From contig MGYJ01000097.1 in assembly GCA_001801685.1 (NCBI GenBank), forward strand, positions 1 through 43,098: a stretch of 43,098 nt of DNA, written 5' to 3'. Below are positions 1,075 through 19,537 of this stretch, piece after piece. Position 1 is the stretch's first letter; each line of letters opens with the position of its first letter. Origin of the DNA: Gammaproteobacteria bacterium RIFCSPHIGHO2_12_FULL_63_22 (lineage in GTDB: Bacteria > Pseudomonadota > Gammaproteobacteria > Xanthomonadales > Xanthomonadaceae). The translations under genes and the position numbers were made by a program. Under the pieces are notes generated by a model. The model was not told the origin of the DNA, made no database searches, and saw nothing but the letters and a program-made list of their open reading frames with translations.

Positions 1075-3582
1075 ATGGCCTCCGCGCTTGACGTCCATGA
1101 GGCGAAATACGGCTCCTACACCATCCCGGCGGTGGAGTCCATCACGGTCGAGTACGCCGACGGTGAGGCCGCGGCCATCCGGCAGGGCTACGGCGGCCGC
1201 ACAGACCGCGAGGGCACCCGCGCCTACTCCCTGACCACGTTGCACGGCGGGCTGGGCATCCTGCGCGGCTCTGAGGTCGCCCACGGCACCCGCTACCGCT
1301 ACAACGAGGGCCTGATGACCCACATGGATAACGGCATGTTCCTGCCCTACGCGGTGACGGCGCAGGCGGCTGAGAGCGCCAACGACATCTCCGGCGTGGT
1401 GGCGGCCAACCTGCGGGTATCGATGGTCAACAGCACCCTGGGCGGCTCGAACCCCCGCCCCTACTTCGCCCTCAAGAATAAGTTCAAGCGGGCGGTGGGC
1501 GACTCCGATAGCGCCGTCGAGACCACCGGCCTGAGCCTGACCGATAGCATCCTGTGCATGACCGAGGGCAAGGCCAACTCGACCCGTTACATCATCTGCG
1601 GCACCAACGGCGCTACCGATGACGTGTTCGGCATCGCCGACCCGACCCTCAGCCCGCCGGTGAAGACGACGATCTTTGCCCTGTCCGCGGGAGATTCCGT
1701 CTGGGGCGTCTGGTACATGCCGAACCTCGGGCCGGGCTACATGGTCTACGCCGGGAAGATTGGCGGCAACAGCGGCCTGCACTACCTGGCTACTACCGCC
1801 GCGTTACTGACGGCGCCGACCCAGATGCCCCTCACTGCCACGGTGGGAGTTGAGGGCAACATCGCCCTCGTCACATCGGCAGAAATGACGCTCTCTCAGG
1901 AGCAGGACGCCAACGGTAATTGGGCTTGGGGCGCTACGACCGCCAGCACGCAGATTGAGTACGGCTACGAATACGGCTTCCCGTCAGGCGATTTCGACGC
2001 GGTGCCGGACGACGCGCTCATCAAAGCCCATCAGGTCAAAGTGACGTTAACCGAGACGAACGTCGTCGTAGGGGCAGCTTACGACGGAGCTGTAATCATA
2101 GTTAACGGCTCCGTCCGCAGTATCAAGTTCGGGGCCGACGATAGCGTCACGTCCACCGTTACCAAGACCTCCGGCAATACGACCAACAACACATTGGGCG
2201 CTGCCATTACGGGGGCTGAGCTTAAGAGCGGCGCCATTCGCGTCGGCCCCGGCCGCGCGTCGGGTGACGGCGCAGGCGGCGCTGATGGAATGGACATCAC
2301 CGCGATAAAGTGGCAGGTAGCCTACCGGCTAACCGGCACTGCGGCGGCGATGACGCTGGGCGGCTTCGCGGGTAGCCCTGACCCGAATGACGAGTTCGCG
2401 GTCTACGCCGCCGCCACGGAGTTTCAGGACGACGCCAGCGCTACCACCGTGCCACGGCTCCTCTGGAAGTTCGACCATTCATACGACGCGGGCAACAACC
2501 GGCCCACGGTCAGCGTCGGCAAGGTGCCCACCGGCCTGCGCCACGTCGAGACCTTCACCTACTCTGCTGGCGGCATCGTGGTGGCCGGGGACACGTCGTC
2601 AGGGCTGGCGAAGGTCTGCAAGCTGCTGTTGCCGGGCAGGACGCCGACCGAGACCGGCTTCAACAGCAAAGATCAGGGCTTTACCGAGGACTGGGGCATC
2701 GCCAACCTCTGGCCCTGCGACCAGGGCTTCATCGCCCAGATGGTCAACACGGCTGGCACCGTCATGCAGGACTGGATATGGCGGGCCGACAACAGCGCTT
2801 TCAGCCCCATCAGCAAGCGGGAGACGATCACCTCGACGCCGATACGCTATGTCCGGGCTGACGTGGGTCACCACCTGCGCCGCCGTTACCGCTTCTACGC
2901 GACCACGACCAACACCAGCGTCTCGCGCATCTTCCAGCCACGGAACATGTACGAGAACCCGCTGAATAACAACACGTCAGAGGTCAAGGAGGACGGGCCG
3001 CTCTACCTCATCACGCCGGACACGGACATCGGCGGCCCGCCGGAGCGCAACAAGGCGGTCCTCGTCGCCTGGTTCCTGGGCCGGGACATCTCCAGCACCA
3101 ACACCGTGAAGCTGGAGTACAGCAGTGACGGCGGTTCCACCTGGACGACGTGGACGACGTTTACCAGCTTCGGCTCGAAGAGCGTCCTTACGACGCCGGT
3201 GGCCTTCCGCTATCTGATGTTCCGGGTCAGCCTGAACCACACCGCCGCCGGCACCGGCACGCCAAACGGCCTCGGTCCCATCCTCATCGAGCTGTACTCT
3301 GGATGGCGGAAGGTGCGCGTGGTTACGATCGACTTCGATGCCGATGGCCGGGAGTTCAGGCTCAAGTACGAGCGCGGCGCCATGCAGCTCTACAGCCTGC
3401 TCCAGACGCAGGAGAACACTCTGCCCGTCCAGACGCTCAGGCTAGGCGCGGACACGTTCCTGGCGTCGATGGCGCCCATGGTGACACGGTTCCGGCCGAA
3501 GGCGCTGGGCGAACGCACGGAGCCTGTGCCTGACCCCAAGGGGCGGCTGCACCGGCTTGAGTTTATGGAGGCGACATCGTGA
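1075..3582 (+). CDS. Large putative tail/virion structural protein
   Basis: The product has 835 residues. The ATG at 1075 is preferred over an in-frame TTG at 1057 because a GGAG lies at the right distance and the ATG sits immediately after the upstream stop. The sequence is rich in Gly, Thr, Ser and aromatic residues with alternating hydrophobic stretches, which is typical of beta-rich phage tail or fibre proteins. A region around residues 640-740 (disulfide-free, with many Ser/Thr/Trp, e.g. GSTWTTWTTF) resembles a beta-sandwich carbohydrate-binding fold. There is no signal peptide or transmembrane segment. It is one of the largest genes of the tail module. A receptor-binding or tail-hub role is an inference from size, composition and position only. 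Confidence 0.75.
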   Translation: MASALDVHEAKYGSYTIPAVESITVEYADGEAAAIRQGYGGRTDREGTRAYSLTTLHGGLGILRGSEVAHGTRYRYNEGLMTHMDNGMFLPYAVTAQAAESANDISGVVAANLRVSMVNSTLGGSNPRPYFALKNKFKRAVGDSDSAVETTGLSLTDSILCMTEGKANSTRYIICGTNGATDDVFGIADPTLSPPVKTTIFALSAGDSVWGVWYMPNLGPGYMVYAGKIGGNSGLHYLATTAALLTAPTQMPLTATVGVEGNIALVTSAEMTLSQEQDANGNWAWGATTASTQIEYGYEYGFPSGDFDAVPDDALIKAHQVKVTLTETNVVVGAAYDGAVIIVNGSVRSIKFGADDSVTSTVTKTSGNTTNNTLGAAITGAELKSGAIRVGPGRASGDGAGGADGMDITAIKWQVAYRLTGTAAAMTLGGFAGSPDPNDEFAVYAAATEFQDDASATTVPRLLWKFDHSYDAGNNRPTVSVGKVPTGLRHVETFTYSAGGIVVAGDTSSGLAKVCKLLLPGRTPTETGFNSKDQGFTEDWGIANLWPCDQGFIAQMVNTAGTVMQDWIWRADNSAFSPISKRETITSTPIRYVRADVGHHLRRRYRFYATTTNTSVSRIFQPRNMYENPLNNNTSEVKEDGPLYLITPDTDIGGPPERNKAVLVAWFLGRDISSTNTVKLEYSSDGGSTWTTWTTFTSFGSKSVLTTPVAFRYLMFRVSLNHTAAGTGTPNGLGPILIELYSGWRKVRVVTIDFDADGREFRLKYERGAMQLYSLLQTQENTLPVQTLRLGADTFLASMAPMVTRFRPKALGERTEPVPDPKGRLHRLEFMEATS

Positions 3583-4130
3583 CCAACGTGACCAAAGCAT
3601 CCGACATGCAGGCGCTGCGGGAGCAGTTCAAAACCTTCCGGCTCACGGAGCAGGTCGTTACCGGCCACGCCAAGCGCCGGGCGAAGTTGCTGGAGCAGGC
3701 CCAGGACGAGGAGATTTTCTCCCATCAGGCACAGAGAGAGGCTGTCGCCCGCTTCGGGCTCGTGGTCGAGCGCCACGGCGCGGCGGCGCTGCTGAATCTC
3801 AGCTACGAACAGGTCATACTCGGCTTGCCGGGTGACCTGTTGTACGTCTACCAGAAACTGCCCTCGGGCGGCTGGGAAGAGCACCTCTTCGGGCCGGCCT
3901 GCGATGACCTGGAGCGGGCGCTGGACCAGTTCAAGACGGACGGGAAGGTGCCTAACCGGGTGGACTGGAGCGACCTCTCGCCACAACTACAGCAGGAGGT
4001 CAGCGAGTACCTGGCCAACAACCGGGATTGGCGCGTGGCTGAATGCGGCCACCGCATCCGCTACCCCCGCGTGCAGGTGGCAGAGAAGGCTGACGGGCCG
4101 CTGCCGGGAGAGGTGCTGAACGGTGTCTGA
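3579..4130 (+). CDS. Hypothetical tail-module protein
   Basis: The product has 183 residues and starts at a GTG that overlaps the previous stop (GTGA). The N-terminal half is strongly helical and charged (residues ~5-50) with coiled-coil-like spacing. The rest is mixed alpha/beta with no recognised motif. It lies directly after the large tail protein and before a group of small membrane proteins. A tail accessory or chaperone role is possible but not shown. Confidence 0.75.
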   Translation: MTNVTKASDMQALREQFKTFRLTEQVVTGHAKRRAKLLEQAQDEEIFSHQAQREAVARFGLVVERHGAAALLNLSYEQVILGLPGDLLYVYQKLPSGGWEEHLFGPACDDLERALDQFKTDGKVPNRVDWSDLSPQLQQEVSEYLANNRDWRVAECGHRIRYPRVQVAEKADGPLPGEVLNGV

Positions 4131-4353
4131 GCCAGACTTCATTGAACGTCTCTTCGTCTTCGAGGCCACGACGCCCGGCTCCCCGGAGGCGAGGGAGGCG
4201 CAGCACCACGTCCTGATGAACCTGCACCGGCGCATCGCCGTGCGCGAGGCGGACGAACGGCTGATAAGGATGGTAAACACGACGCTGCGGACGGTGCTGA
4301 TACCCGTGCTCGGCCTTGCGCTGCTAGAGCTTGTGAGAAGGCTGGTGTCCTGA
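4123..4353 (+). CDS. Small protein with one C-terminal membrane helix
   Basis: The product has 76 residues from a GTG start that overlaps the upstream gene by 8 bp. Residues 1-50 are charged and helical. Residues ~55-71 form one clear transmembrane segment (LIPVLGLALLEL), followed by a basic end (VRRLVS). A helical cytoplasmic domain plus one C-terminal anchor is compatible with a lysis-associated or tail-anchored membrane protein. It opens a run of consecutive membrane/export genes (4123-6767), so it may belong to the lysis module. No family is recognised. Confidence 0.7.
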   Translation: MSEPDFIERLFVFEATTPGSPEAREAQHHVLMNLHRRIAVREADERLIRMVNTTLRTVLIPVLGLALLELVRRLVS

Positions 4354-4661
4354 TGGACTGGATTTACGTTGTTAGCAGCGTGGCGGTCGCCGCCCTGGGC
4401 ATCATGGCGATGCTGGTAGGAAGCTCCCACGAGCACGACTGCCATTATCGAAGAGAGGCGCTTGTCCTCCTCGGTATCTATCTCCTCGTAGCCGGGCTGA
4501 TGCGACTCTACGGGACCTCACGCGAGGCGACGGGTATCCTGAGCATCTTCTTTTGCTTCAGCCTGAGCAGCACGACGGTCTGTCACTTCCTGTTCCATCG
4601 TTTCCTTGAGCAGCGGGGGTATTATGCAGACGAGAAGCGCGAGCGGAGGTTAGCGGGATGA
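4353..4661 (+). CDS. Three-helix membrane protein, holin candidate
   Basis: The product has 102 residues with three hydrophobic segments at about 4-23, 36-53 and 61-84 and a basic C-terminus (DEKRERRLAG). Size, three transmembrane helices and a charged tail match the general look of class I holins, which open the cell membrane for endolysin. Its position next to other small membrane proteins and an exported protease supports a lysis role. No sequence family is recognised, and other small phage membrane proteins look similar. It starts at an ATG overlapping the previous stop by one base (TGATG). Confidence 0.7.
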   Translation: MDWIYVVSSVAVAALGIMAMLVGSSHEHDCHYRREALVLLGIYLLVAGLMRLYGTSREATGILSIFFCFSLSSTTVCHFLFHRFLEQRGYYADEKRERRLAG

Positions 4662-4981
4662 AGTTGAAAGAGGCTCTTGCGGGAGGTGGACAGCTTCTGG
4701 CGGGGGCCGCCTTGCTGATAGGCGCCATCGCCGGCGCCACGGCCGAGAACCAGGCGTCGCCGCTCGACCAGGTGCCGAACCTCAACCCGTTTGCCTCCAG
4801 CCCTGCCGAGTGGCGTTGCCCTGACGGGTTTGTTGAGACGCGCGGCTACGACAGCGACGCGGCCTCAGACTTCATGGCCTGCGAGTCGCCACGCTACATC
4901 ATCAAGAAATTGACGGCAGGCGAGCCGGTGGGTTTCGACAAGGAGACGGGCAAGTATCTTGACCCGGAGACGCTGCGGTGA
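4658..4981 (+). CDS. Membrane-anchored or exported small protein
   Basis: The product has 107 residues. A hydrophobic Ala/Gly segment at residues ~11-29 follows two lysines and could be a signal anchor or cleaved signal peptide (Ala-rich region before ENQ). The remaining ~75 residues are hydrophilic with two cysteines (WRCPDG and FMACESP) that could form a disulfide outside the cell. It overlaps both neighbours by 4 bp. Lysis (spanin-like) or surface modification are possible, but no lipobox is present and no family is recognised. Confidence 0.7.
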   Translation: MKLKEALAGGGQLLAGAALLIGAIAGATAENQASPLDQVPNLNPFASSPAEWRCPDGFVETRGYDSDAASDFMACESPRYIIKKLTAGEPVGFDKETGKYLDPETLR

Positions 4982-8418: not shown

Positions 8419-8861
8419 ACGCACTAACGCACGACTTTTGGGACGGCAACGGCCCCGTGCCTGCTCACCAGCACCCGAATGGCGGAGGATGGGTAGCAGA
8501 TACGGCGCGGGTCTCCGGCTCGGCGCAGGTCTCCGGCTCGGCGCAGGTCTTCGGCTCGGCGCAGGTCTTCGGCGAGGCGCGGGTCTTCGGCGAGGCGCGG
8601 GTCTTCGGCGAGAGATCGCTAATAACTCTCGGCCCCGTCGGGAGCCGCAATGCATTTCTCACGGCGGTCTTTCCTGAGCCTGACAGCGACGCGGTAATCC
8701 AAATCTTTACCGGCTGCTTCTCGGGCTCGCTGGAGCAGTTTGAGGCGGCCGTCACGAAGACGCACGGCGAATCGGTCTACGCGCGGGAATACCTGGCCAC
8801 CGCCGAATACCTCAAGGCGCTGACCGCCGCGAGGCTGGAACCGGCAAAGGTGACCTCGTGA
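8415..8861 (+). CDS. Hexapeptide-repeat (left-handed beta-helix) protein
   Basis: The product has 148 residues. Residues 31-66 form six consecutive hexapeptides of the type A-x-V-x-G-x (ARVSGS, AQVSGS, AQVFGS, AQVFGE, ARVFGE twice). These are the building blocks of a left-handed parallel beta-helix such as in acyltransferases and polymer-forming proteins. About two helical turns are present, too short for a transferase active site, so it is more likely a structural or oligomerisation module. The remaining ~80 residues are a mixed domain without known motifs. At the DNA level the repeat is an 18-bp tandem array. It starts at GTG by GTGA overlap. Confidence 0.75.
   Translation: MNALTHDFWDGNGPVPAHQHPNGGGWVADTARVSGSAQVSGSAQVFGSAQVFGEARVFGEARVFGERSLITLGPVGSRNAFLTAVFPEPDSDAVIQIFTGCFSGSLEQFEAAVTKTHGESVYAREYLATAEYLKALTAARLEPAKVTS
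8505..8612 (+). repeat. Six tandem 18-bp coding repeats
   Basis: Six in-frame copies of an 18-bp unit (consensus GCGCRGGTCTYCGGCKMG) encode the hexapeptide repeats. Copies 1-3 end TCG and copies 4-6 end GAG, so neighbours resemble each other most, as expected from slippage or unequal recombination. Confidence 0.85.
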
Positions 8862-9589
8862 ACGCCGCAGAGTTGCGAGAGCAGACCACGGCCCGCGACG
8901 CGCGCTCGGTCGGCAACTTCGAGGTGCGTTTCACGGACGCCGCCGCCTACCTCCAGACGCTGGAGCAGGATGCGCAGCTTGGCGCCATCGCCGACAGCAT
9001 CGTCTGGCTGGCCCGCACTGCTGGCATCGCGACCCTTGACGAAGTGACCGGCCGCTGGAACCCCGGCGGCGGACGCGAGGTCGAGTCGTGGCGCTCGATG
9101 TACGTCGAGTGCTCCTACATCGCCCGCGGCCAGCTCCACAAGCTGAGCGTCTACTGTGGCGTCGCCCGCAAGGACGCGCAGCCCGGTGGCGACGACAGGT
9201 CTGAGGCAACGGCGCTCAGGCTGCTGGAGACAGAGCGCCGGATGCAGACCGCCGTGTCGAAGCTGCGAGGCGAGTACGCCCTGCAGGTCCGTGGCGGTGG
9301 CGCCCTGCATCTGCACGACCTGTCGTCGCCATGGATGGCGCACCCGGACCAGAGCATCGAGGCGGTGCCGGAGCCGGTATGCGCGACGTGTAAGGAGCCG
9401 ATCCACTACGCCAACGAGACATGGCGGCACGACAGCGACAACCGCGCAGAGGCGACGTTGGCGGCGGAGGGGTGGGAGGGGAACCCGATACGCAAGCTGC
9501 ACCATGTTGCGTCACCCGAGCACGCCTGTGGGCCGTTATGTCCTGACCACGGCGACGTGCGGGACACCAGCCTGGCGGTGCAGCCGTGA
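8858..9589 (+). CDS. Hypothetical protein with C-terminal Cys/His cluster
   Basis: The product has 243 residues from a GTG start. The N-terminal ~150 residues are helical with no known motif. The C-terminal ~65 residues hold CATCKEPIHY, then a histidine cluster (KLHHVASPEHACGPLCPDH) that looks like a zinc-binding module. The whole layout suggests a nucleic-acid-associated early protein, but no family is recognised. It overlaps both neighbours by 4 bp. Confidence 0.7.
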   Translation: MNAAELREQTTARDARSVGNFEVRFTDAAAYLQTLEQDAQLGAIADSIVWLARTAGIATLDEVTGRWNPGGGREVESWRSMYVECSYIARGQLHKLSVYCGVARKDAQPGGDDRSEATALRLLETERRMQTAVSKLRGEYALQVRGGGALHLHDLSSPWMAHPDQSIEAVPEPVCATCKEPIHYANETWRHDSDNRAEATLAAEGWEGNPIRKLHHVASPEHACGPLCPDHGDVRDTSLAVQP

Positions 9590-9894
9590 GCGCAGAACTG
9601 CCGGCCTACGAGATTTCCGGCTACCACTACGAGTGGCGTGCTGAGGTCGATTCGGACTGGTCGCTGGCCGCTGAGCGCATTGCTGGGAAGCGCTGCCGGT
9701 ACACGGTAGGCCCCGGCAATAGGATCTGTGGAGCCGAACCAGTAGCCGCCCTGAACCGGGGCATGACAAGGGACGGCTTAGGCCGCGTGCCCTCGTGGTG
9801 GGCTTACTGCGGTGAGCACCTCTACGGGCGGCGCATCCACAACGGCGTAATCGAGGGGCCTGTCCAGGTGCCGGATGAGGCGGTGCAGCCGTGA
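9586..9894 (+). CDS. Hypothetical Cys-containing early protein
   Basis: The product has 102 residues from a GTG start with a GTGA overlap. Cysteines and a His (KRCRYTV, RICGAE, AYCGEHLYG) are spaced as in small treble-clef-like zinc sites. The sequence is otherwise unrecognised. Confidence 0.65.
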   Translation: MSAELPAYEISGYHYEWRAEVDSDWSLAAERIAGKRCRYTVGPGNRICGAEPVAALNRGMTRDGLGRVPSWWAYCGEHLYGRRIHNGVIEGPVQVPDEAVQP

Positions 9895-10034
9895 GCCTCG
9901 TCTGGGCTATCGCCTGCGTCGTCCTCTTCGCCCTCGCGCTCGTCCTGCTGGACCAGGAGCGCCCACCGCGCATCGACCGCAGCAAGCAGCCGCGAGTCAT
10001 TGACCTCACCACCTACCGGAGGATCCGGCGATGA
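9891..10034 (+). CDS. 47-residue single-pass membrane protein
   Basis: This short gene is bracketed by GTGA (9891-9894) and ATGA (10031-10034) overlaps. Residues 2-20 are a hydrophobic helix (WAIACVVLFALALVLL), followed by a basic tail. It is probably an inner-membrane miniprotein, with no known function. Confidence 0.6.
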   Translation: MSLVWAIACVVLFALALVLLDQERPPRIDRSKQPRVIDLTTYRRIRR

Positions 10035-10276
10035 GCGAGGGATTGATCTTCGCCTACCGCTACCTGTTCGGCGCATTCCCGCTGACCCCTGTCGTGGTGG
10101 TGGCGGTTCAGGGCGGTGGCAACGATTGGGCTGCCTACATCGCCGGGCTGCAAACCTATAGCGAGCCACAGCCGGACTTTCTGCAACGAGTCTATCGAGA
10201 GGGCTGCAAGCTGAGCGAGAGTGAGGCTATCGCCTTCTTCCCCCACGTCAATCCTGACCTGAGCTACCGGCGATGA
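10031..10276 (+). CDS. Hypothetical early protein
   Basis: The product has 81 residues, with hydrophobic patches in the first 30 (FPLTPVVVVAVQGG) and a mixed remainder. No motif is recognised. It overlaps both neighbours by 4 bp in the ATGA style. Confidence 0.65.
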   Translation: MSEGLIFAYRYLFGAFPLTPVVVVAVQGGGNDWAAYIAGLQTYSEPQPDFLQRVYREGCKLSESEAIAFFPHVNPDLSYRR

Positions 10277-10500
10277 CGGCTGAGTACGTGGTCGAAGTCC
10301 TCAAAACGCCGGCCTGGACGCGGGTGATCGCGCAGGCGCCGGACGGCACCTACACGGCGGTAGTCCGCTTCACGGACGGGCGCCGGAGCGTCAGGCTGGA
10401 CAGCTACCAGCGGGTCGAGACGGCGCGCTACGACGCGCTGGCGGCGACGCGGAAGCCTGACGGCCGCACGCCCCGGCAGCGCAACCACGGGTACGTTTGA
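10273..10500 (+). CDS. Hypothetical basic early protein
   Basis: The product has 75 residues, with a beta-rich N-terminus and a basic C-terminal tail (RKPDGRTPRQRNHGYV) that could contact nucleic acid. No family is recognised. Its stop overlaps the next ATG by one base. Confidence 0.65.
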   Translation: MTAEYVVEVLKTPAWTRVIAQAPDGTYTAVVRFTDGRRSVRLDSYQRVETARYDALAATRKPDGRTPRQRNHGYV

Positions 10501-10688
10501 TGGATAAGCCAGCCATCCAGGCATTAGTAGAGGCGACCGGCGCCATCCGCATGGAACTGCGTACGCGTGACTGGTTCCGAATCGATCATGGTTTCGGCGT
10601 GGACCCCTACGCCGACTTGAAAGACGCCGAGTTTCACCTGCGAGCACTGTATCGAATCCTCGGCGCACCGGAGCAGCCCGATGACTAG
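10500..10688 (+). CDS. Small hypothetical protein upstream of the RecT-like gene
   Basis: The product has 62 residues from the ATG at 10500, and a TTG at 10497 is the alternative. It is helical with an acidic centre. It overlaps the RecT-like gene by 8 bp, so it may be co-translated with it. The function is unknown. Confidence 0.65.
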   Translation: MDKPAIQALVEATGAIRMELRTRDWFRIDHGFGVDPYADLKDAEFHLRALYRILGAPEQPDD

Positions 10689-13854: not shown

Positions 13855-14273
13855 CCTCCCGCACGCCATCCCTGCCGCGGTTCCGGGTCGATGACGGGCA
13901 GGCTGAGGGTCACCGCTGGCGTCTGTCGCAGCGCTGCTACTGGTGCGCCCTGCCCGTGCGCTATGTCGTCGAGTCTGTGCCTGACCAGGCAACCCGAGAG
14001 CATATCAAGCCCCGGTCGGTGGGCGGCGCCTCTGGCAATCAACACCGGAACATCGTCGTCGCCTGCCGTCGCTGTAATCAGGCGCGGGGCACAGATACCC
14101 GCTGGCTCCCCTTCCACATCGTTGAGAAGCATCCTCGCTTTGACCCAAAACGAGGCCAAGTCTATGCCCTCTGCCCGCGTACGGACTGCGGCATCTACTG
14201 CACCCGTTGCGGCGGTCTGGCTGTTGAGATCGTTCCCGTGCCGCCGCGACCCCGGCGAGAGGCGGCGTCATGA
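13851..14273 (+). CDS. HNH endonuclease with C-terminal zinc ribbon
   Basis: The product has 140 residues. C29/C32 (CYWC) and CRRCN (72-76) frame the HNH core EHIKPRSVGG (50-59) with N63 and N67, the classic beta-beta-alpha-metal nuclease. C108, C113, C117 and C120 form a second ribbon near the C-terminus. It could be a phage HNH nuclease acting in recombination or restriction of competitors, or a free-standing homing enzyme. It starts at ATG 13851 by ATGA overlap. Confidence 0.8.
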   Translation: MTSRTPSLPRFRVDDGQAEGHRWRLSQRCYWCALPVRYVVESVPDQATREHIKPRSVGGASGNQHRNIVVACRRCNQARGTDTRWLPFHIVEKHPRFDPKRGQVYALCPRTDCGIYCTRCGGLAVEIVPVPPRPRREAAS

Positions 14274-14458
14274 GGACGCGTCGCTACTGCCTGTTCTGCA
14301 AGCGGTACATCAAGCCCGGCGCCGTCTGCTACAAAGTCCTCAGAGTCGACTCACAGACACCAGGGCGCAAAGACGGTGCCATAGTTGCCTACATCTGCGC
14401 GCGCCACTGGGCTGAGACAGAGCAAGCGGCGACGCTACTGCAGGACGTGGCGCCGTGA
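14270..14458 (+). CDS. Zinc-ribbon miniprotein
   Basis: The product has 62 residues. CLFC near the N-terminus, then AVCY and YICARHW downstream, give a Cys4/Cys3His metal site. It is coupled to both neighbours by 4-bp overlaps. The function is unknown. Confidence 0.65.
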   Translation: MRTRRYCLFCKRYIKPGAVCYKVLRVDSQTPGRKDGAIVAYICARHWAETEQAATLLQDVAP

Positions 14459-14661
14459 TCGCCGCCGTGTCGCGCTCGCGCCGCCCGCGCCTGTTTGCGT
14501 ACTGCCGGGTGAAGCGCTGCCGGTCGGTAGCGACCGAGACGCTAAACGCCGGGGCCGCGCCCTTCTGGTGTGGCAAACACCTTTCGGGGGCGCTGGCCCT
14601 GACGAGCAGTAAGCCGCTGACGATGGCTGAGGCGAAGGCGAAGCGGGAGGGGATGAAGTGA
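14455..14661 (+). CDS. Basic Cys-containing miniprotein
   Basis: The product has 68 residues from GTG (GTGA overlap). The N-terminus is Arg-rich. YCRVKRCRS and FWCGKHLSG provide Cys and His for one metal site. The C-terminal tail is Lys/Glu-rich. It is probably nucleic-acid binding by composition, but no family is recognised. Confidence 0.6.
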   Translation: MIAAVSRSRRPRLFAYCRVKRCRSVATETLNAGAAPFWCGKHLSGALALTSSKPLTMAEAKAKREGMK

Positions 14662-16094
14662 CGCTGGCAGCCATTGAGCCGAACACAATCCTATGCGGCG
14701 ACGTGCTGGAGCAGCTCGCGCTACTGCCGGCCGAGAGCGTGAACACCTGCGTAACCTCGCCGCCTTACTGGGGCTTGCGGGACTACGGCGAGGCAGGGCA
14801 GATCGGCCTTGAGGCCACGCCGGAGGAGTACGTGGCGAAGCTGGTAGCCGTATTCCGCGAAGTGCGAAGGGTGCTGCGAGCCGATGCCACGCTCTGGCTC
14901 AATCTCGGAGACAGCTATGCCAGCGGCGGGCGCAAAACGCGTGACCCAGGTAAGTCCAAGATTCATTCGGCGTCCCATTCATCGAACGCCGGCCGCCCTG
15001 ACACACCGCCCGGCCTCAAGCCTAAAGACCTCGTAGGCATCCCGTGGCGTGTCGCGTTCGCGTTGCAGCAGCCCTATTACACAGGCAACATCAAGGACGA
15101 GAAGGAACGTATCTGGCTTGCCGCGATGATGGACGGCGAGGGAACATTTACGATCCTCTCCACGACATCGCCGCATGGTTCCGGCAATTCCTACCCACCG
15201 ATTGCACAAATTCGCATGACATCGGAAGCGGCAATTAAAAAGGCTGCAACCCTGGTGGGCGTCGCTTCGCCGGCGCAGTATCCACCGTCGCTGCGGGGAA
15301 AGCGTGCTGTTTACCAGTGGCGCCTTGCTGGTGTCCGTGCGGCGTCTGTCGCGCAAGAGTTGTATCCGTACCTGATCGTGAAGCGGCTACAGGCGCTTGT
15401 TGCTTGGAACCACCAGCAAATCCGTGACGGCTACGAGACGAAGCGCGGCGTCACAATTCCACAAGAAGCACTCGACAAACAACTCGTGTGCCGGGACCTA
15501 ATCAGGCGGCTTAATCGAGACGAGACGGTCATCATCCCTTCGTGGATGAAGGAGCCGCCTTCGCTCTATGAACCTGGCTATTACCTGCGAAGCGATGTGA
15601 TCTGGAGCAAGCCGAACCCGATGCCGGAGTCAGTAACAGATCGACCAACGAAGGCGCACGAGTACATCTTCCTGCTGAGTAAGAGCCAGACGTACTACTA
15701 CGATCACGAGGCGATTAAGGAGCCAGCGCAGGACTGGGGCACGCGAGACCGCAGCAACTTTCGCAATGGCACCGAAGACCCATTGCTCAAGCACCACGGC
15801 TTCACGAACGGCAACCAGGCTGAGACTGGCCGCAACAAGCGCACCGTCTGGCACGTCGCCACGCAGCCATACAGCGAGGCGCACTTCGCCACCTTCCCCG
15901 AAGAATTGATAAAGCCCTGCATCCTTGCGGGCGCTCCCGAAGGCGGGCTGGTGCTAGACCCATTCTTTGGCTCCGGCACAACTGGCCTGGTCTCAGCTAA
16001 GGCAGGGAGAGGCTACATCGGGATCGAGTTGAATCCGAAATATGTTGCGATGGCCGAGAGGCGGTTGGCGCCGTTCAGGGTGAGGCTGCTATGA
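14658..16094 (+). CDS. DNA (N4-cytosine/N6-adenine) methyltransferase with inserted LAGLIDADG domain
   Basis: The product has 478 residues. It is a class-beta amino-methyltransferase: catalytic motif IV TSPPYW at 33-38 comes first, and the SAM-binding motif I DPFFGSGTTG at 434-443 is C-terminal. The conserved block YLRSDVIWSKPNPMPES (309-325) lies between them. Such enzymes transfer methyl from S-adenosylmethionine to an exocyclic amino group, probably to protect phage DNA from restriction. Between FALQ (~137) and YLRSD (~309), where related enzymes are continuous, about 165 extra residues carry a LAGLIDADG-type motif, LAAMMDGEG (154-162), and a typical C-terminal ELYPYLIVKRLQALVAW (234-250). 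The insert keeps the frame open and shows no intein splice residues. Whether the enzyme still methylates is unknown. Confidence 0.85.
   Translation: MTLAAIEPNTILCGDVLEQLALLPAESVNTCVTSPPYWGLRDYGEAGQIGLEATPEEYVAKLVAVFREVRRVLRADATLWLNLGDSYASGGRKTRDPGKSKIHSASHSSNAGRPDTPPGLKPKDLVGIPWRVAFALQQPYYTGNIKDEKERIWLAAMMDGEGTFTILSTTSPHGSGNSYPPIAQIRMTSEAAIKKAATLVGVASPAQYPPSLRGKRAVYQWRLAGVRAASVAQELYPYLIVKRLQALVAWNHQQIRDGYETKRGVTIPQEALDKQLVCRDLIRRLNRDETVIIPSWMKEPPSLYEPGYYLRSDVIWSKPNPMPESVTDRPTKAHEYIFLLSKSQTYYYDHEAIKEPAQDWGTRDRSNFRNGTEDPLLKHHGFTNGNQAETGRNKRTVWHVATQPYSEAHFATFPEELIKPCILAGAPEGGLVLDPFFGSGTTGLVSAKAGRGYIGIELNPKYVAMAERRLAPFRVRLL
15072..15575 (+). mobile_element. In-frame LAGLIDADG homing-endonuclease insertion
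   Basis: This segment codes for residues ~139-306 of the methyltransferase. It has one LAGLIDADG motif (15117-15143), so it would act as a dimer, like I-CreI. At both borders there is a similar short peptide (QPYY at the left, EPGYY at the right), perhaps a small recoded duplication of the target. I recall similar inserts at this position in other phage and metagenomic methyltransferases, but I cannot verify that here. Border positions are approximate. Confidence 0.6.
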
Positions 16095-16471
16095 CGCCCG
16101 CCACCCTCACCCGCCGCGAGCGCCTGCTGGTAGCCATCTGGGATGCATGGAAGGACGGCCGCGCGATCCGGTACACCGACATGATCGCGGCGTCTGGGTT
16201 CGTGTCGCGCAGTGGACTCTGGTCAACACTAGCCATCCTTGTGAGGCAAGGATGGCTCCGCAAGTCGGTAGTTGAACACTACCACTGGATCGACGCACAG
16301 AAGAGCCATAAGTACCTGCCCGGCCCGCGCTTTGGCGGCATCGACCGCAAGACTGGCCGGCCGCTCTACATCATCCAGGGCGCGGACCAGTTTCGGGCAC
16401 CAGCCATGCGAGCGCCGAAGTACGACCGGCGTAGGGAGCTTTTTGTGGCAGCGCGGAGGTTAGGGGCGTGA
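16091..16471 (+). CDS. Winged-helix DNA-binding protein
   Basis: The product has 126 residues. Residues ~5-60 read as a winged helix-turn-helix (TRRERLLVAIWDAW, then YTDMIAASGF, then SGLWSTLAILVRQGWL), similar to the DNA-binding part of LexA-like or replication-initiator proteins. The C-terminal half is basic and unrecognised. It lies between the two methyltransferases, so it may be a controller of these genes, though this is only positional. It starts by ATGA overlap. Confidence 0.6.
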   Translation: MTPATLTRRERLLVAIWDAWKDGRAIRYTDMIAASGFVSRSGLWSTLAILVRQGWLRKSVVEHYHWIDAQKSHKYLPGPRFGGIDRKTGRPLYIIQGADQFRAPAMRAPKYDRRRELFVAARRLGA

Positions 16472-16710
16472 GGGGCACCGCTGCTGCTGAGGCTGAGATG
16501 TTGCTGGCGTTCGAGAGGCTCTGCCGGCGCTGCGAGCTCCTGGAGCCGCACCCGCTGTATTGGGCCAAATACCCAACGGATGAGGGCGTAGTGATCGAAG
16601 TGGTTGAAGAGGCGCTGGATGAAGGGCCTGCCTGCCGGGGCGGACTGCGACCGTTGACCAGCATGGGTGGCGACTGTCCGTATTTCAAGGGTAATGAGGC
16701 CGCGCCGTGA
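16468..16710 (+). CDS. Hypothetical Cys-containing protein
   Basis: The product has 80 residues from GTG by GTGA overlap. The N-terminal half is helical with CRRC at about 19-22. The C-terminal half has two further Cys (ACRGG, DCPYF). It may be a small metal-binding protein of unknown role, immediately upstream of the endonuclease/methyltransferase pair. Confidence 0.6.
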   Translation: MRGTAAAEAEMLLAFERLCRRCELLEPHPLYWAKYPTDEGVVIEVVEEALDEGPACRGGLRPLTSMGGDCPYFKGNEAAP

Positions 16711-17129
16711 CCTGCGCACGTCGGCCACGACTGCTCGACTTGTTCTGCGGCGCGGGAGGCGCGGCGATGGGCTCTCCAACAGAGCTTGCTTGGGCTGCTG
16801 GCTTTTTCGATGGAGAGGGTTCCATCTCTGCGATTCACGACAAGCGACCGGGGCGCCGCCCCAGTATCTCGCTATCCATTGAGCAGGTTGACTTACGGCC
16901 ATTGACGCGGTTCCGGGAGGCAGTCAATTGGCACGGCAACATTGTGCAGCGGCCTGCGAGGCGAGCGCCGAATCGGCGACCAATCAACCGCATTTACACC
17001 ACCAATGAAGCAGCGCTGAACATCATCGGCGTCCTGTGGCCGTGGCTTTCGGAGCCTAAACGAGAGCAGTTCGAGCGAGCTTTAGCAATTGTGGGAGAGG
17101 ATCGGTATGTCACGCCCCAGGTTGCTTGA
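16707..17129 (+). CDS. LAGLIDADG homing endonuclease fused to a methyltransferase N-terminus
   Basis: The product has 140 residues from GTG 16707. Residues 6-22 (RPRLLDLFCGAGGAAMG) are the start of a C5-cytosine methyltransferase, its SAM-binding motif I. The frame then turns into a single-motif LAGLIDADG endonuclease: AGFFDGEGSI (31-40), then SISLSIEQVD (53-62), NEAALNIIG (100-108) and WPWLSEPKREQFERAL (111-126), the order seen in I-CreI-like enzymes. An internal ATG at 16767 (M21), preceded by GGGAGG at 7 nt, could produce the endonuclease alone. The 3' end overlaps the intact methyltransferase by 23 bp. The fused methyltransferase piece lacks all catalytic motifs after motif I. Confidence 0.8.
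   Translation: MTCARRPRLLDLFCGAGGAAMGSPTELAWAAGFFDGEGSISAIHDKRPGRRPSISLSIEQVDLRPLTRFREAVNWHGNIVQRPARRAPNRRPINRIYTTNEAALNIIGVLWPWLSEPKREQFERALAIVGEDRYVTPQVA
16722..16772 (+). repeat. First (donor-type) copy of the duplicated methyltransferase N-terminus
   Basis: 17 codons for RPRLLDLFCGAGGAAMG. A second copy at 17113-17163 encodes the same peptide with M changed to V. Counting by hand, 19 of 51 bases and 16 of 17 codons differ, and all differences but one are silent. Confidence 0.85.
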
Positions 17130-17787
17130 TCTTTTTTGTGGGGCAGGGGGAGCCGCCGTTGGCTACTACCGCGCCGGCTTCGATGTGGTGGGGGTCGATC
17201 TAAAGCCGCAGCCGCGATACCCCTTTGAGTTTCACCAGGCGGACGCCATGACGTATCCGCTGGAGGGCTTCGATGCTATTCACGCGAGCCCGCCGTGCCA
17301 GGGATACAGCCGCCTACGGCATCTTCCCTGGCTGAGGGGCCGCGTGTGGCCCTTACTGATTGAACCAACCCGAGAGCGGCTAATCGCAGCAGGCATCCCC
17401 TGGACAATTGAGAACGTCATGGACGCACCCCTCCACGGCCCGTGGCTTTGTGGTCGGATGTTTGATTTGCCGCTTTACCGGCACCGCCGTTTTGAATCGT
17501 CCTGGCGTTGGTTCCCACCTCATCACCTGAAGCACGGGACCGTCATCGGTCACGGACGGATGGTCAATGACCGCCATAAAGGAACGCTTAACGCCGGTAG
17601 CAACAAAGGCGCTTGGGGCAATCAATCGATCGTGACCGTGGCCGGCGGGCAATTCCGCAAAGCAGACGGGGAGTCCGCAATGGGCATCGACTGGATGTCG
17701 AAGGCGGAGCTTACGCAGGCTATCCCGCCCGTGATGACCGAGTACATAGGCCGTCAGTTGATAGCCGTCATGGCGGCTACGCGATGA
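17107..17787 (+). CDS. C5-cytosine DNA methyltransferase
   Basis: The product has 226 residues, a compact phage Dcm-type enzyme that methylates C5 of cytosine. Motif I DLFCGAGGAAVGY is at 8-20, the catalytic PCQ at 63-65 (C64 nucleophile), ENV at 102-104, and a C-terminal QAIPPVMTEYIGRQL (204-218) that fits motifs IX/X. The target-recognition region is very short, as in many phage versions. The ATG at 17107 follows GGGAGAGGA, and a GTG 18 bp upstream is in frame but less fitting. Its first 17 conserved codons are a recoded duplicate of those fused to the endonuclease just upstream. It probably protects phage DNA from host restriction. Confidence 0.9.
   Translation: MSRPRLLDLFCGAGGAAVGYYRAGFDVVGVDLKPQPRYPFEFHQADAMTYPLEGFDAIHASPPCQGYSRLRHLPWLRGRVWPLLIEPTRERLIAAGIPWTIENVMDAPLHGPWLCGRMFDLPLYRHRRFESSWRWFPPHHLKHGTVIGHGRMVNDRHKGTLNAGSNKGAWGNQSIVTVAGGQFRKADGESAMGIDWMSKAELTQAIPPVMTEYIGRQLIAVMAATR
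17113..17163 (+). repeat. Second (recoded) copy of the duplicated methyltransferase N-terminus
   Basis: This is the same 17-residue peptide as at 16722-16772 with different codons at 16 of 17 positions. It uses AT-ending codons (CTT GAT CTT TTT TGT) that are rare in the surrounding GC-rich genes, a sign of separate origin or selection against similarity. Confidence 0.85.
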
Positions 17788-18251
17788 TCTGCCAGACCTG
17801 CGGCAACCCCCACGAAGGCCGCGGCTCCCGCTGCCAGCCCTGCCTGCTGCACCCGCCGCCAGAGCAGGCCCGCCAGCGCAGCACGCCCACGAAGGGCAAG
17901 GGGCAGCAGCGTAGCGGTTCAGCGCCCTACCAGCCACAGAGCGCTACTAGCCGCGCAGGGGCGATAGCGGCCCTGCCTCACATCGAGACGCAGACCGAGC
18001 GCTGTGTGAGAGTCCTACAGGAGTATGGCCCGGCGACGCGCAACGAGCTGGCCTTGCGGTCGAACATCGTCCTCTCCGCCGTCTGTGCCCGCGTCAACCC
18101 GCTACTGGCGGACCAGCGCGACGCTGACGGCAGGCTGATTGCCCGTCAGGAGCTGAGGGTAGCCGGGCAGCGCAGCTGCCGGGTGAGCGGGCACACCGCC
18201 GAGGTGCTGGAGTATCTGAGTTACGAGACGTGGCGCGAGAGGATGTTATGA
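17784..18251 (+). CDS. Zinc-ribbon plus winged-helix DNA-binding protein
   Basis: The product has 155 residues, starting by ATGA overlap. The N-terminus has CQTCGNP and RCQPCLL, a four-Cys ribbon in the first ~20 residues. A basic disordered linker follows. Residues ~65-130 (RVLQEYGPATRNELAL, then VLSAVCARVNPLLADQ) form a winged-helix-like domain. It is likely a transcription or replication factor. A longer open frame upstream lies in the methyltransferase and is rejected. Confidence 0.65.
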   Translation: MICQTCGNPHEGRGSRCQPCLLHPPPEQARQRSTPTKGKGQQRSGSAPYQPQSATSRAGAIAALPHIETQTERCVRVLQEYGPATRNELALRSNIVLSAVCARVNPLLADQRDADGRLIARQELRVAGQRSCRVSGHTAEVLEYLSYETWRERML

Positions 18252-18504
18252 AGCCTAGTGAGACAACAGAGCAGCAACTACGCGGTGCCAAGCGTGAGAT
18301 ACGCGAGACGCGGAAACACATTCGGGCCCTGACCCTTGAGGTGGAGTCATATCTTGCCTGTCTCGACCTTGAGATGACGAAGCATGAGAACCCTTTGCGC
18401 GGCCAGGAAATCGCCAAACTCAGCAACCGGCTTGAGATGGCAAGCGACATTGCGATCCGTTTCGGCCTGGGCAAACGTTGATGGGGCGCGAGAGGATGCT
18501 ATGA
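18232..18504 (+). repeat. 20-bp direct repeat bracketing a small gene
   Basis: GGCGCGAGAGGATGYTATGA occurs at 18232-18251 and 18485-18504 with one mismatch (T/C). Each copy ends in the ATGA that starts a gene, at 18248 and 18501. The 253-bp unit between equivalent positions carries exactly one gene with its ribosome-binding region. Confidence 0.8.
18248..18481 (+). CDS. Small coiled-coil protein in a repeat-bracketed cassette
   Basis: The product has 77 residues, almost entirely charged helix with heptad-like spacing (EQQLRGAKREIRETRKHIRA), so probably a coiled coil. The ATG at 18248 overlaps the upstream stop. The gene is enclosed by the 20-bp direct repeat, suggesting it was inserted, or could be deleted, by recombination between the repeats. 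The function is unknown. Confidence 0.65.
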   Translation: MKPSETTEQQLRGAKREIRETRKHIRALTLEVESYLACLDLEMTKHENPLRGQEIAKLSNRLEMASDIAIRFGLGKR

Positions 18505-18788: not shown

Positions 18789-19537
18789 TGAAGTGGTTTC
18801 GGTTCTACAGCGAGGCGCTGGCCGACCCAAAGGTGCAGCTGCTTCCTGACGCGACCTTCAAGGGCTGGATCAATCTACTCTGCGTCATCAATGAGACGGA
18901 GCCTAGCCGCGGCCCTCGCAGCGGCTACCTTCCGCCGCGCTTCGAGGACATCACTTATAAGCTCTATGGCCGCGAGCCTGAAGGCGCTGACCGGGCAGCA
19001 TCCCTATTGGCCGAACTGGTTGAAATCGGCCTGCTGGAGCTCCGGAGCGGACGCTATCGGGCGCACAACTGGCCCCGCCGCCAGCCCGTTTCAGACGATG
19101 TTACATCGAGGGTGCAGGAAACACGTATGAAACGAAAAGGAAACGTTACATCCACCGTACATGTACGGCGAAAGCACGGCGAAAGCACGGCCCCAGAGGA
19201 GAGGAGAGGAGAGGAGAGGAGAGAGGAAGATAGAGACTTAGAGGCAGATACAGAGGCAGATACAGAGGCAGAGGAGGATCAGCGCGACGAGCGCGCCGTC
19301 CGCCGCCGCCTCAGTAGCCTGAGCCTTCGGGTCAGCAATCTGGATTTATCCTCTGCCCTCGAAGCTTCTGGCCCAGATTGCATCTGGCATTGCGTCGACG
19401 AAGCCGAGCGGCACAACAAGCTGTCCTGGGCTTACGTGGACCAGATTCGGCTCCGTCACGGCCGCGACGGCTGCCCCCCTACTGAGCTGAAAACACGAAC
19501 CGAGCGATTAGCAGCGGCGCCAAGCCGCAGGAGGTAA
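18788..19537 (+). CDS. DnaD-like phage replication protein
   Basis: The product has 249 residues. The N-terminal ~105 residues (KWFRFYSEALADPKVQLLPD, then FKGWINLLCVI and LVEIGLLE) match the winged-helix N-terminal domain of phage replisome organisers and DnaD-like initiators. Residues ~135-170 are an extremely acidic/charged low-complexity stretch encoded by purine repeats. The C-terminal ~70 residues form a small helical domain. Such proteins bind the phage origin and help load the helicase. The origin-like repeats within the gene (19096-19275) support this. No helicase gene is seen in the window, so the host enzyme may be used. Confidence 0.65.
   Translation: MKWFRFYSEALADPKVQLLPDATFKGWINLLCVINETEPSRGPRSGYLPPRFEDITYKLYGREPEGADRAASLLAELVEIGLLELRSGRYRAHNWPRRQPVSDDVTSRVQETRMKRKGNVTSTVHVRRKHGESTAPEERRGEERREEDRDLEADTEADTEAEEDQRDERAVRRRLSSLSLRVSNLDLSSALEASGPDCIWHCVDEAERHNKLSWAYVDQIRLRHGRDGCPPTELKTRTERLAAAPSRRR
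19096..19275 (+). other. Origin-like cluster of palindromes and iterons
   Basis: This region inside the replication gene contains CGATGTTACATCG (19096-19108, palindrome), GTTACATC twice (19100-19107, 19145-19152) and the perfect palindrome CCGTACATGTACGG (19155-19168). It also has CGGCGAAAGCA twice in tandem (19166-19187), GAGGA five times (19196-19220) and GAGGCAGATACA twice (19241-19264). Lambda-type phages place their origin iterons in the same way, within the initiator gene. This is an inference; coding constraints may explain part of it. Confidence 0.45.

Follow-up and report, generated by a model that had tools for sequence, protein, structure and literature searches.

When a homing endonuclease inserts into a gene, an intron or an intein is usually required to spare the host. 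The locus described here raises the question of how a phage methyltransferase gene can appear intact with an endonuclease gene lodged in it and neither of these elements detected. It lies in the window, by which we mean the whole stretch of DNA analyzed, 43,098 nucleotides long (positions 1-43098 of contig C97 in a 99-contig, 4.26 Mb assembly). Among the phage genes of the window, one matches phrog_38 (E=1.5e-84) as a terminase large subunit and another matches phrog_3926 (E=3e-12) as a replication initiation protein. The window ends were inspected for a terminal repeat, and none was seen.

The locus consists of two overlapping ORFs on the plus strand. The first (16707-17129), which begins with a GTG start codon, encodes a 17-residue stretch of a C5-methyltransferase, RPRLLDLFCGAGGAAMG (16722-16772), and then becomes a LAGLIDADG endonuclease. 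The second (17107-17787) encodes a complete C5-methyltransferase whose N-terminus is MSRPRLLDLFCGAGGAAVG. It matches PF00145 (E=5.1e-5, 23.3 bits, cutoff 22) and phrog_363 (E=5.5e-30), and is, as judged from these matches, a C5-cytosine methyltransferase with an intact N-terminal motif and predicted activity. We took its start as the ATG at 17107; the ORF list also offers an earlier TTG at 17089. Between the fragment and the intact copy, 16 of the 17 codons and 19 of the 51 bases of the repeat differ, with a single amino acid replacement (M to V). The sequence-only reading of this DNA had described the fused ORF as 17 methyltransferase residues followed by a single-motif LAGLIDADG endonuclease and had counted the codon differences by hand; the coordinates are confirmed, and the count proved exact on recount. 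It had also reported a methyltransferase with the same 17 residues just after the endonuclease. That gene is present, and “just after” is slightly inaccurate, since the ORFs share a 23-base overlap that places the methyltransferase ATG within the endonuclease ORF. Upstream of this ATG, within the 3′ end of the endonuclease gene, stands GGAGAGGA (17094-17101, plus strand), which resembles a ribosome-binding site and is positioned as one that may serve the re-supplied start codon.

Read in this way, the plus strand carries, in order, what codon usage identifies as the leftover native N-terminus of the methyltransferase, written in ordinary codons and now forming the leader of the endonuclease ORF (16707-16772); the endonuclease domain with its stop codon (16773-17129); the putative recoded N-terminus, comprising 19 codons including the start and ending at the insertion site (17107-17163); and the methyltransferase body from the insertion site onward (17164-17787). 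The body is supported by PF00145 and by codon typicality, and retains PCQ and ENV, which we take to be the named motifs of the enzyme. The insertion point falls after the Gly codon of GGAAMG. On this sequence evidence, the start region and first codons of the target now lead into the endonuclease, and the body, joined to the apparent replacement N-terminus, is an intact gene.

Several lines of evidence support the assignment of the endonuclease. The domain matches PF00961 just under the cutoff (E=3.3e-4, 21.9 bits against 23.1) and phrog_5046 at residues 23-127 of the fused ORF (E=1.9e-12). A motif scan and an alignment of 38 sequences, comprising the window, viral contig L003 and 36 further relatives (L040, L043, L047, L050 and L061 were left out), located the LAGLIDADG-type motif WAAGFFDGEG (16791-16820, plus strand). 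Nine of its positions are invariant, and the acidic residue Glu 37, which we assume to be catalytic in such a motif, is present in 90% or more of the sequences. Compared with solved structures, the profile built from the alignment matched I-MsoI (E=9.9e-13), in a structure whose 373-residue chain holds the domain twice, and also I-CvuI and I-CreI. The predicted model (mean pLDDT 87.1) shows the order helix-strand-strand-helix-strand-strand-helix plus a last helix. The methyltransferase-derived leader lies outside this fold, residues 1-20 being of low confidence (block mean pLDDT 61 and 55). I-MsoI was also the top fold match in the PDB (Foldseek, E=2.4e-5, TM 0.56 by query and 0.49 by target). 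By motif, profile and predicted fold, the ORF is a single-motif LAGLIDADG homing endonuclease with predicted cleavage activity, and by analogy with I-CreI and I-MsoI it probably acts as a homodimer. As a side observation, phrog_5046 carries the label “HNH endonuclease” in PHROGs, and motif, profile and fold place its member in the window (16773-17087) among LAGLIDADG enzymes.

The best matches to the window endonuclease by profile and fold include the LAGLIDADG enzymes I-MsoI, I-CvuI and I-CreI. I-MsoI and I-CvuI are intron-encoded, as is I-CreI; the window endonuclease, by contrast, lies in coding sequence with no intron detected. Among Rfam models, none for a group I intron matched positions 14000-18500 of the window at E≤1, and a mir-484 match in the same interval (E=0.0061, below the gathering score) was taken as chance. 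An intein is ruled out, as the endonuclease ORF closes with a stop codon and the methyltransferase restarts at its own ATG.

Which of the two N-termini is native was addressed by comparing codon usage with uninterrupted methyltransferases. The set comprised 156 loci (76, 79 and L002), of which 151 had the N-terminal motif; removing repeats and unreadable stretches left 135 distinct N-termini from 132 loci, which were compared codon by codon. The best-scoring full-length match to the window methyltransferase in this set is only 54%, and because the uninterrupted genes are so distant, the distinction between native and new ends in the window rests on codon statistics. The fragment is ordinary, with 71 of the 135 uninterrupted N-termini less typical, whereas only 3 of 135 rank below the re-supplied end. 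(A smaller set of 71 N-termini had placed none below this copy; the figure from the larger set is the one we use.) To the right of the insertion site, 69 of 135 are lower than the window gene. A stronger drop in typicality, taken as left minus right, is found in only 1 of 135 N-termini, and all of these figures are ranks rather than probabilities, because the N-termini in the comparison are not independent but related. An alignment with uninterrupted methyltransferases had been named in the sequence-only reading as a check; the codon comparison with the 135 N-termini shows an ordinary fragment and a re-supplied end that is odd up to the insertion site.

The closest relative of the endonuclease, among the best 80 of 366 relatives in viral contigs, is encoded on L003 and shares this layout. 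There, PRLLDLFCGAGGAAMG is fused to the endonuclease and is followed by an intact methyltransferase with ...AAVG, so that M is again followed by V, and the residue at which the endonuclease enters the methyltransferase is identical to that in the window. The endonucleases are 64% identical and the methyltransferases 45%, so these are not near-identical phages. The cassette in the two genomes likely shares common descent. Codon usage in L003 follows the same course: 129 of 135 N-termini are less typical than its fragment, 12 of 135 are lower than its re-supplied end, 135 of 135 are lower to the right of the insertion site, and 1 of 135 has a steeper drop. In both genomes, only the re-supplied stretch is odd in its codons, with the change falling at the insertion site, and codon evidence says that the fragment would be the native end and the downstream N-terminus the re-supplied one. 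The bare count of shared synonymous codons is less telling than the drop in typicality. The two fragments have 7 of 13 in common, and fragment and copy share 1 of 13 in the window and 3 of 13 in L003; among 4,427 natural gene pairs, 51 share at most 1 of 13 and 14% at most 3 of 13.

The difference from M to V, seen in both genomes, is consistent with protection of the re-supplied end from cleavage: ATG has no synonym, and Val is natural at this position in 18 of the 135 uninterrupted N-termini (Met in 101). A second methyltransferase gene in the assembly (L002, contig C28) is uninterrupted and has Arg at this position.

Further searches defined the reach of this particular arrangement. By tblastn at E 1e-5, neither the 50,697 phage records nor the 72,556 plasmid records contained a match to the fused ORF, so the exact insertion site is known from two genomes only. 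Nor did the fused ORF match any of 60 relatives of the host genome at E≤0.001 (its own genome being the 61st). The pattern ATGGG followed by the exact WAAGFFDGEG occurred in no stretch of genome_contigs. A looser motif pattern returned 108 stretches in viral_contigs; of these, the L003 contig alone has a C5-methyltransferase fused to the endonuclease. The L003 endonuclease itself had no Pfam match at E≤0.01.

We consider it probable that the window contains a homing cassette that carries its own replacement gene end in a phage C5-methyltransferase, and that it behaves as a natural home-and-rescue drive. The parts of the cassette would be the gene for the LAGLIDADG endonuclease, a ribosome-binding site with a start codon, and the N-terminus that replaces the native one. 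The endonuclease would cut the uninterrupted junction in a co-infecting phage, and repair would copy the whole cassette into the cut genome. The recoded left half-site would make the new junction a poor substrate, so that in a carrier the enzyme would stay active and its gene uncut. That the endonuclease cuts the uninterrupted junction and spares the recoded one is what we infer from the sequences. Raw counts of the best pseudo-palindromic pairing hardly separate the two junctions (8 of 12 for the native and 7 of 12 for the recoded, in both genomes). If true, this would be another route to host sparing in phages, in which the broken gene end is brought back in different codons, and a natural counterpart of the engineered home-and-rescue drive, in which the copy of the target gene is reportedly recoded. 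It would explain how endonuclease genes come to reside inside useful coding sequence, and phage genes would be expected to carry short recoded ends that mislead phylogenies and gene calls.

The arrangement also recurs on other target genes. In a proximity scan, we scored the peptide just upstream against the peptide just downstream of each LAGLIDADG ORF. The sample combined the best 80 of 366 endonuclease relatives, viral contigs from motif scans (108, then at least 120 in each of three further scans), 30 genome-contig loci and the loci fetched for the methyltransferases and for the target gene of contig L189. It amounted to 439 ORFs, 384 after dereplication, 356 of them with sufficient flank. 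The window (L001) scored 87, and only 1 of 4,000 mismatched pairs reached at least 60 (99.9th percentile 43, maximum 79). Nine of the 356 ORFs reached at least 60, against 0.09 expected from the mismatched pairs. By eye, six of the nine are clear cases: the window, L003, L189, L018, L388 and L513; because the sample was chosen by similarity and motif, 6 of 356 is no frequency in phages. L189 is an N-terminal case on a virion structural gene (phrog_3287, E=9.8e-10), with the 16 codons after the start re-supplied. The other three are C-terminal cases: on an SNF2 helicase (L018, 2575-4351), a terminase large subunit (L388, minus strand, about 8690-10582) and RtcB (L513, minus strand, about 3080-4891). 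In these, by analogy with the fungal mitochondrial cases discussed below, we took as the putative native end the tail that follows the endonuclease or is joined to its terminus.

Three high scorers were rejected. In L225 (7100-7496), the repeat is readable on the opposite strand and may be an ordinary protein repeat; it would place the endonuclease on the strand opposite its target. L607 (1101-1356, counted on the reverse strand) has a duplication without a clear reading frame, and L042 (981-1425) is of low complexity. A duplication also flanks a LAGLIDADG gene in L023 (4084-4606), with a proximity score of 45, and was not counted as clear. Five further loci (L245, L264, L008, L517 and L536) scored 72-102 in a wider scan, yet did not reach 60 in the proximity scan; the null of the wide scan had a 99th percentile of 48 and a maximum of 107, the latter from an apparently homologous locus pair.

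For L189, an uninterrupted relative of the target gene is available in L638, with a protein 71% identical. Of the synonymous codons compared with L638, 9 of 12 agree in the leftover fragment, 1 of 11 in the re-supplied copy and 139 of 255 in the gene body; the low agreement of the copy has P=0.0024, and fragment and copy differ with Fisher P=0.0028. In sequence terms, the apparent native end of L189 is the one that matches the uninterrupted relative in DNA, and the apparent new end does not. The comparison follows the logic by which native and inserted ends were assigned in fungal mitochondria, as described in the portion of PMC3630166 at hand. A point against this reading is that in GC3 the re-supplied end of L189 is nearer to the body (0.27 and 0.22, respectively, versus 0.47 for the fragment).

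The central claim of the sequence-only reading, that a homing endonuclease displaced and re-supplied the methyltransferase N-terminus, is supported by L003, by the four other target genes and by the codon discontinuity. Beyond this locus, and with more reserve, we lean towards regarding end-replacing recoded endonucleases as a recurrent phage class, acting at N- or C-termini of methyltransferase, virion protein, terminase, helicase and RtcB genes. In this class, the codon change would be selected against self-cleavage, and the elements would act as natural home-and-rescue drives, leaving short recoded scars behind in phage genes.

How strong the recoding is bears on whether it was selected. 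Under a null of random, uniform codon choice at same-residue positions, 15 of 16 codons are changed in the window against 11.7 expected (P=0.039), 12 of 14 in L189 (P=0.066) and 9 of 9 in L018 with the stop codon counted (P=0.043). The corresponding figures are 12 of 15 in L003 (P=0.36), 7 of 10 in L388 (P=0.51) and 10 of 18 in L513 (P=0.91), the last two not above chance. Pooled over the six cases, 65 of 82 codons are changed against 56.5 expected (P=0.02). The recoding is divergence at or slightly above saturation, and mismatch alone is no proof of a selected codon change, because a distant donor would be nearly equivalent and three of the six cases are at chance. Homing may accordingly have carried along a replacement end from a diverged donor, the codon differences being old and escape from cleavage a by-product. 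We regard this as unlikely, though worth serious weight. It agrees with the mismatches of L003, L388 and L513, which are no higher than random codon choice, and the Glomus case was read by its authors as horizontal transfer, according to the part of PMC3630166 at hand. The near-complete change of same-residue codons in the window, L189 and L018 argues against it, as does the contrast within L189 between an end matching L638 at 1 of 11 codons and a body matching it at 139 of 255. The changes are, moreover, almost all synonymous and confined to short stretches.

A very improbable origin is a tandem pair of methyltransferase genes in which deletion reduced the first to a 17-residue stub and a free endonuclease became joined to this remnant. 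Such decay would likewise leave a two-copy layout, and the 1 of 13 codons shared in the window is equalled by the 51 of 4,427 separate natural gene pairs. In two diverged genomes, though, the codons of the downstream gene are atypical up to the point where the stub stops and typical beyond it, and the same layout is found in unrelated genes. Decay of a separate full-length methyltransferase, set beforehand in the sequence-only reading as grounds against its own account, is disfavored by this discontinuity, because a full-length second gene is not expected to switch codons at the insertion site. Two methyltransferase copies without an endonuclease were sought in the 151 loci as far as the flanks reach; a second motif within 1.5 kb occurred in 1 of 151, in a separate ORF for a different type of methyltransferase. 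Least probable of all is a passive insertion with incidental duplication by an endonuclease whose real target lies elsewhere: free-standing phage homing endonucleases do cut hundreds or thousands of bases away (PMC2988022, in the excerpt at hand), but passive insertion would not be expected to give a common insertion site in two diverged genomes or a re-supplied end that meets it.

The homing cassette with its own replacement end, as we read the locus, has a precedent outside phages. Mobile ORFs with a replacement C-terminus are described in fungal mitochondria, in atp6 of Allomyces, in atp6, atp9, cox2 and nad3 of Glomus sp., in atp9 of Rhizopus and in cox2 of Mortierella (excerpts of PMC3630166; also PMC4019555). 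The precedent named in the sequence-only reading, atp6 of Allomyces, is confirmed in the first of these sources. As in the window, the excerpts have the endonuclease within the gene, with one gene end present twice, as a native and as a re-supplied copy on either side of it; the new end is close in protein and diverged in DNA, and the hybrid gene is kept (PMC3630166). In the fungal cases, the native end matches uninterrupted relatives, as does the apparent native end of L189; for the window, the codon statistics against the 135 distant N-termini point the same way. Unlike those C-terminal, mitochondrial cases, the window, L003 and L189 concern the N-terminus, and the C-terminal cases here are L018, L388 and L513. 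The window also differs in being a phage gene in which the start region of the target leads into the endonuclease and the re-supplied end has its own ribosome-binding-like site and start. Judged from titles and the openings of abstracts, the openly licensed literature yielded no end-replacing endonuclease in a phage or at an N-terminus. On these partial sources, the C-terminal kind of fungal mitochondria is already known, and the phage setting and the N-terminal form appear to be new here.

Homing endonucleases inside phage genes are known from nrdA/mobE of Aeh1 and gene 60/mobA of T4 (PMC2988022, in part). As in the window, the endonuclease lies within a phage gene, and nrdA function is kept. 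Unlike in the window, nrdA and gene 60 remain two reassembling pieces, and the excerpt mentions no re-supplied end. Similarly, a survey of phage nuclease genes covers interrupted genes, with no re-supplied ends mentioned in the portion at hand (PMC10448857). Experimental protection by recoding is reported for a phage gene, in that recoded PhiKZ gp178 restored viability against PhiPA3 gp210 (PMC11620839, in part). The likeness is that a phage endonuclease cuts the gene of a rival and the recoded copy is protected; according to the same excerpt, gp210 differs in being intron-borne, and it was the experimenters who introduced the recoding. Engineered home-and-rescue drives likewise combine, in a single cassette, a cutter with a working copy of the gene it targets, and differ in being synthetic, CRISPR-based and built in Drosophila, as far as the excerpt at hand describes them (PMC7968924).

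Upstream of the cassette and outside it, the window contains a plus-strand N6/N4 methyltransferase gene (14658-16094, PF01555) with an in-frame domain of the same endonuclease family at residues 148-281 (phrog_5046, E=2.5e-19), located between FALQ and GYYLRSD. In this gene, no stop, restart or re-supplied end was seen, and the homologue in Bordetella phage PHB04 is continuous at the site of the domain. In a motif scan of the fetched loci, an in-frame endonuclease domain in an N6/N4 methyltransferase was found in the window only. Within the replication initiation gene, positions 19195-19280 form a purine-rich short repeat of GGAGA and CAGATA units that encodes a charged stretch.
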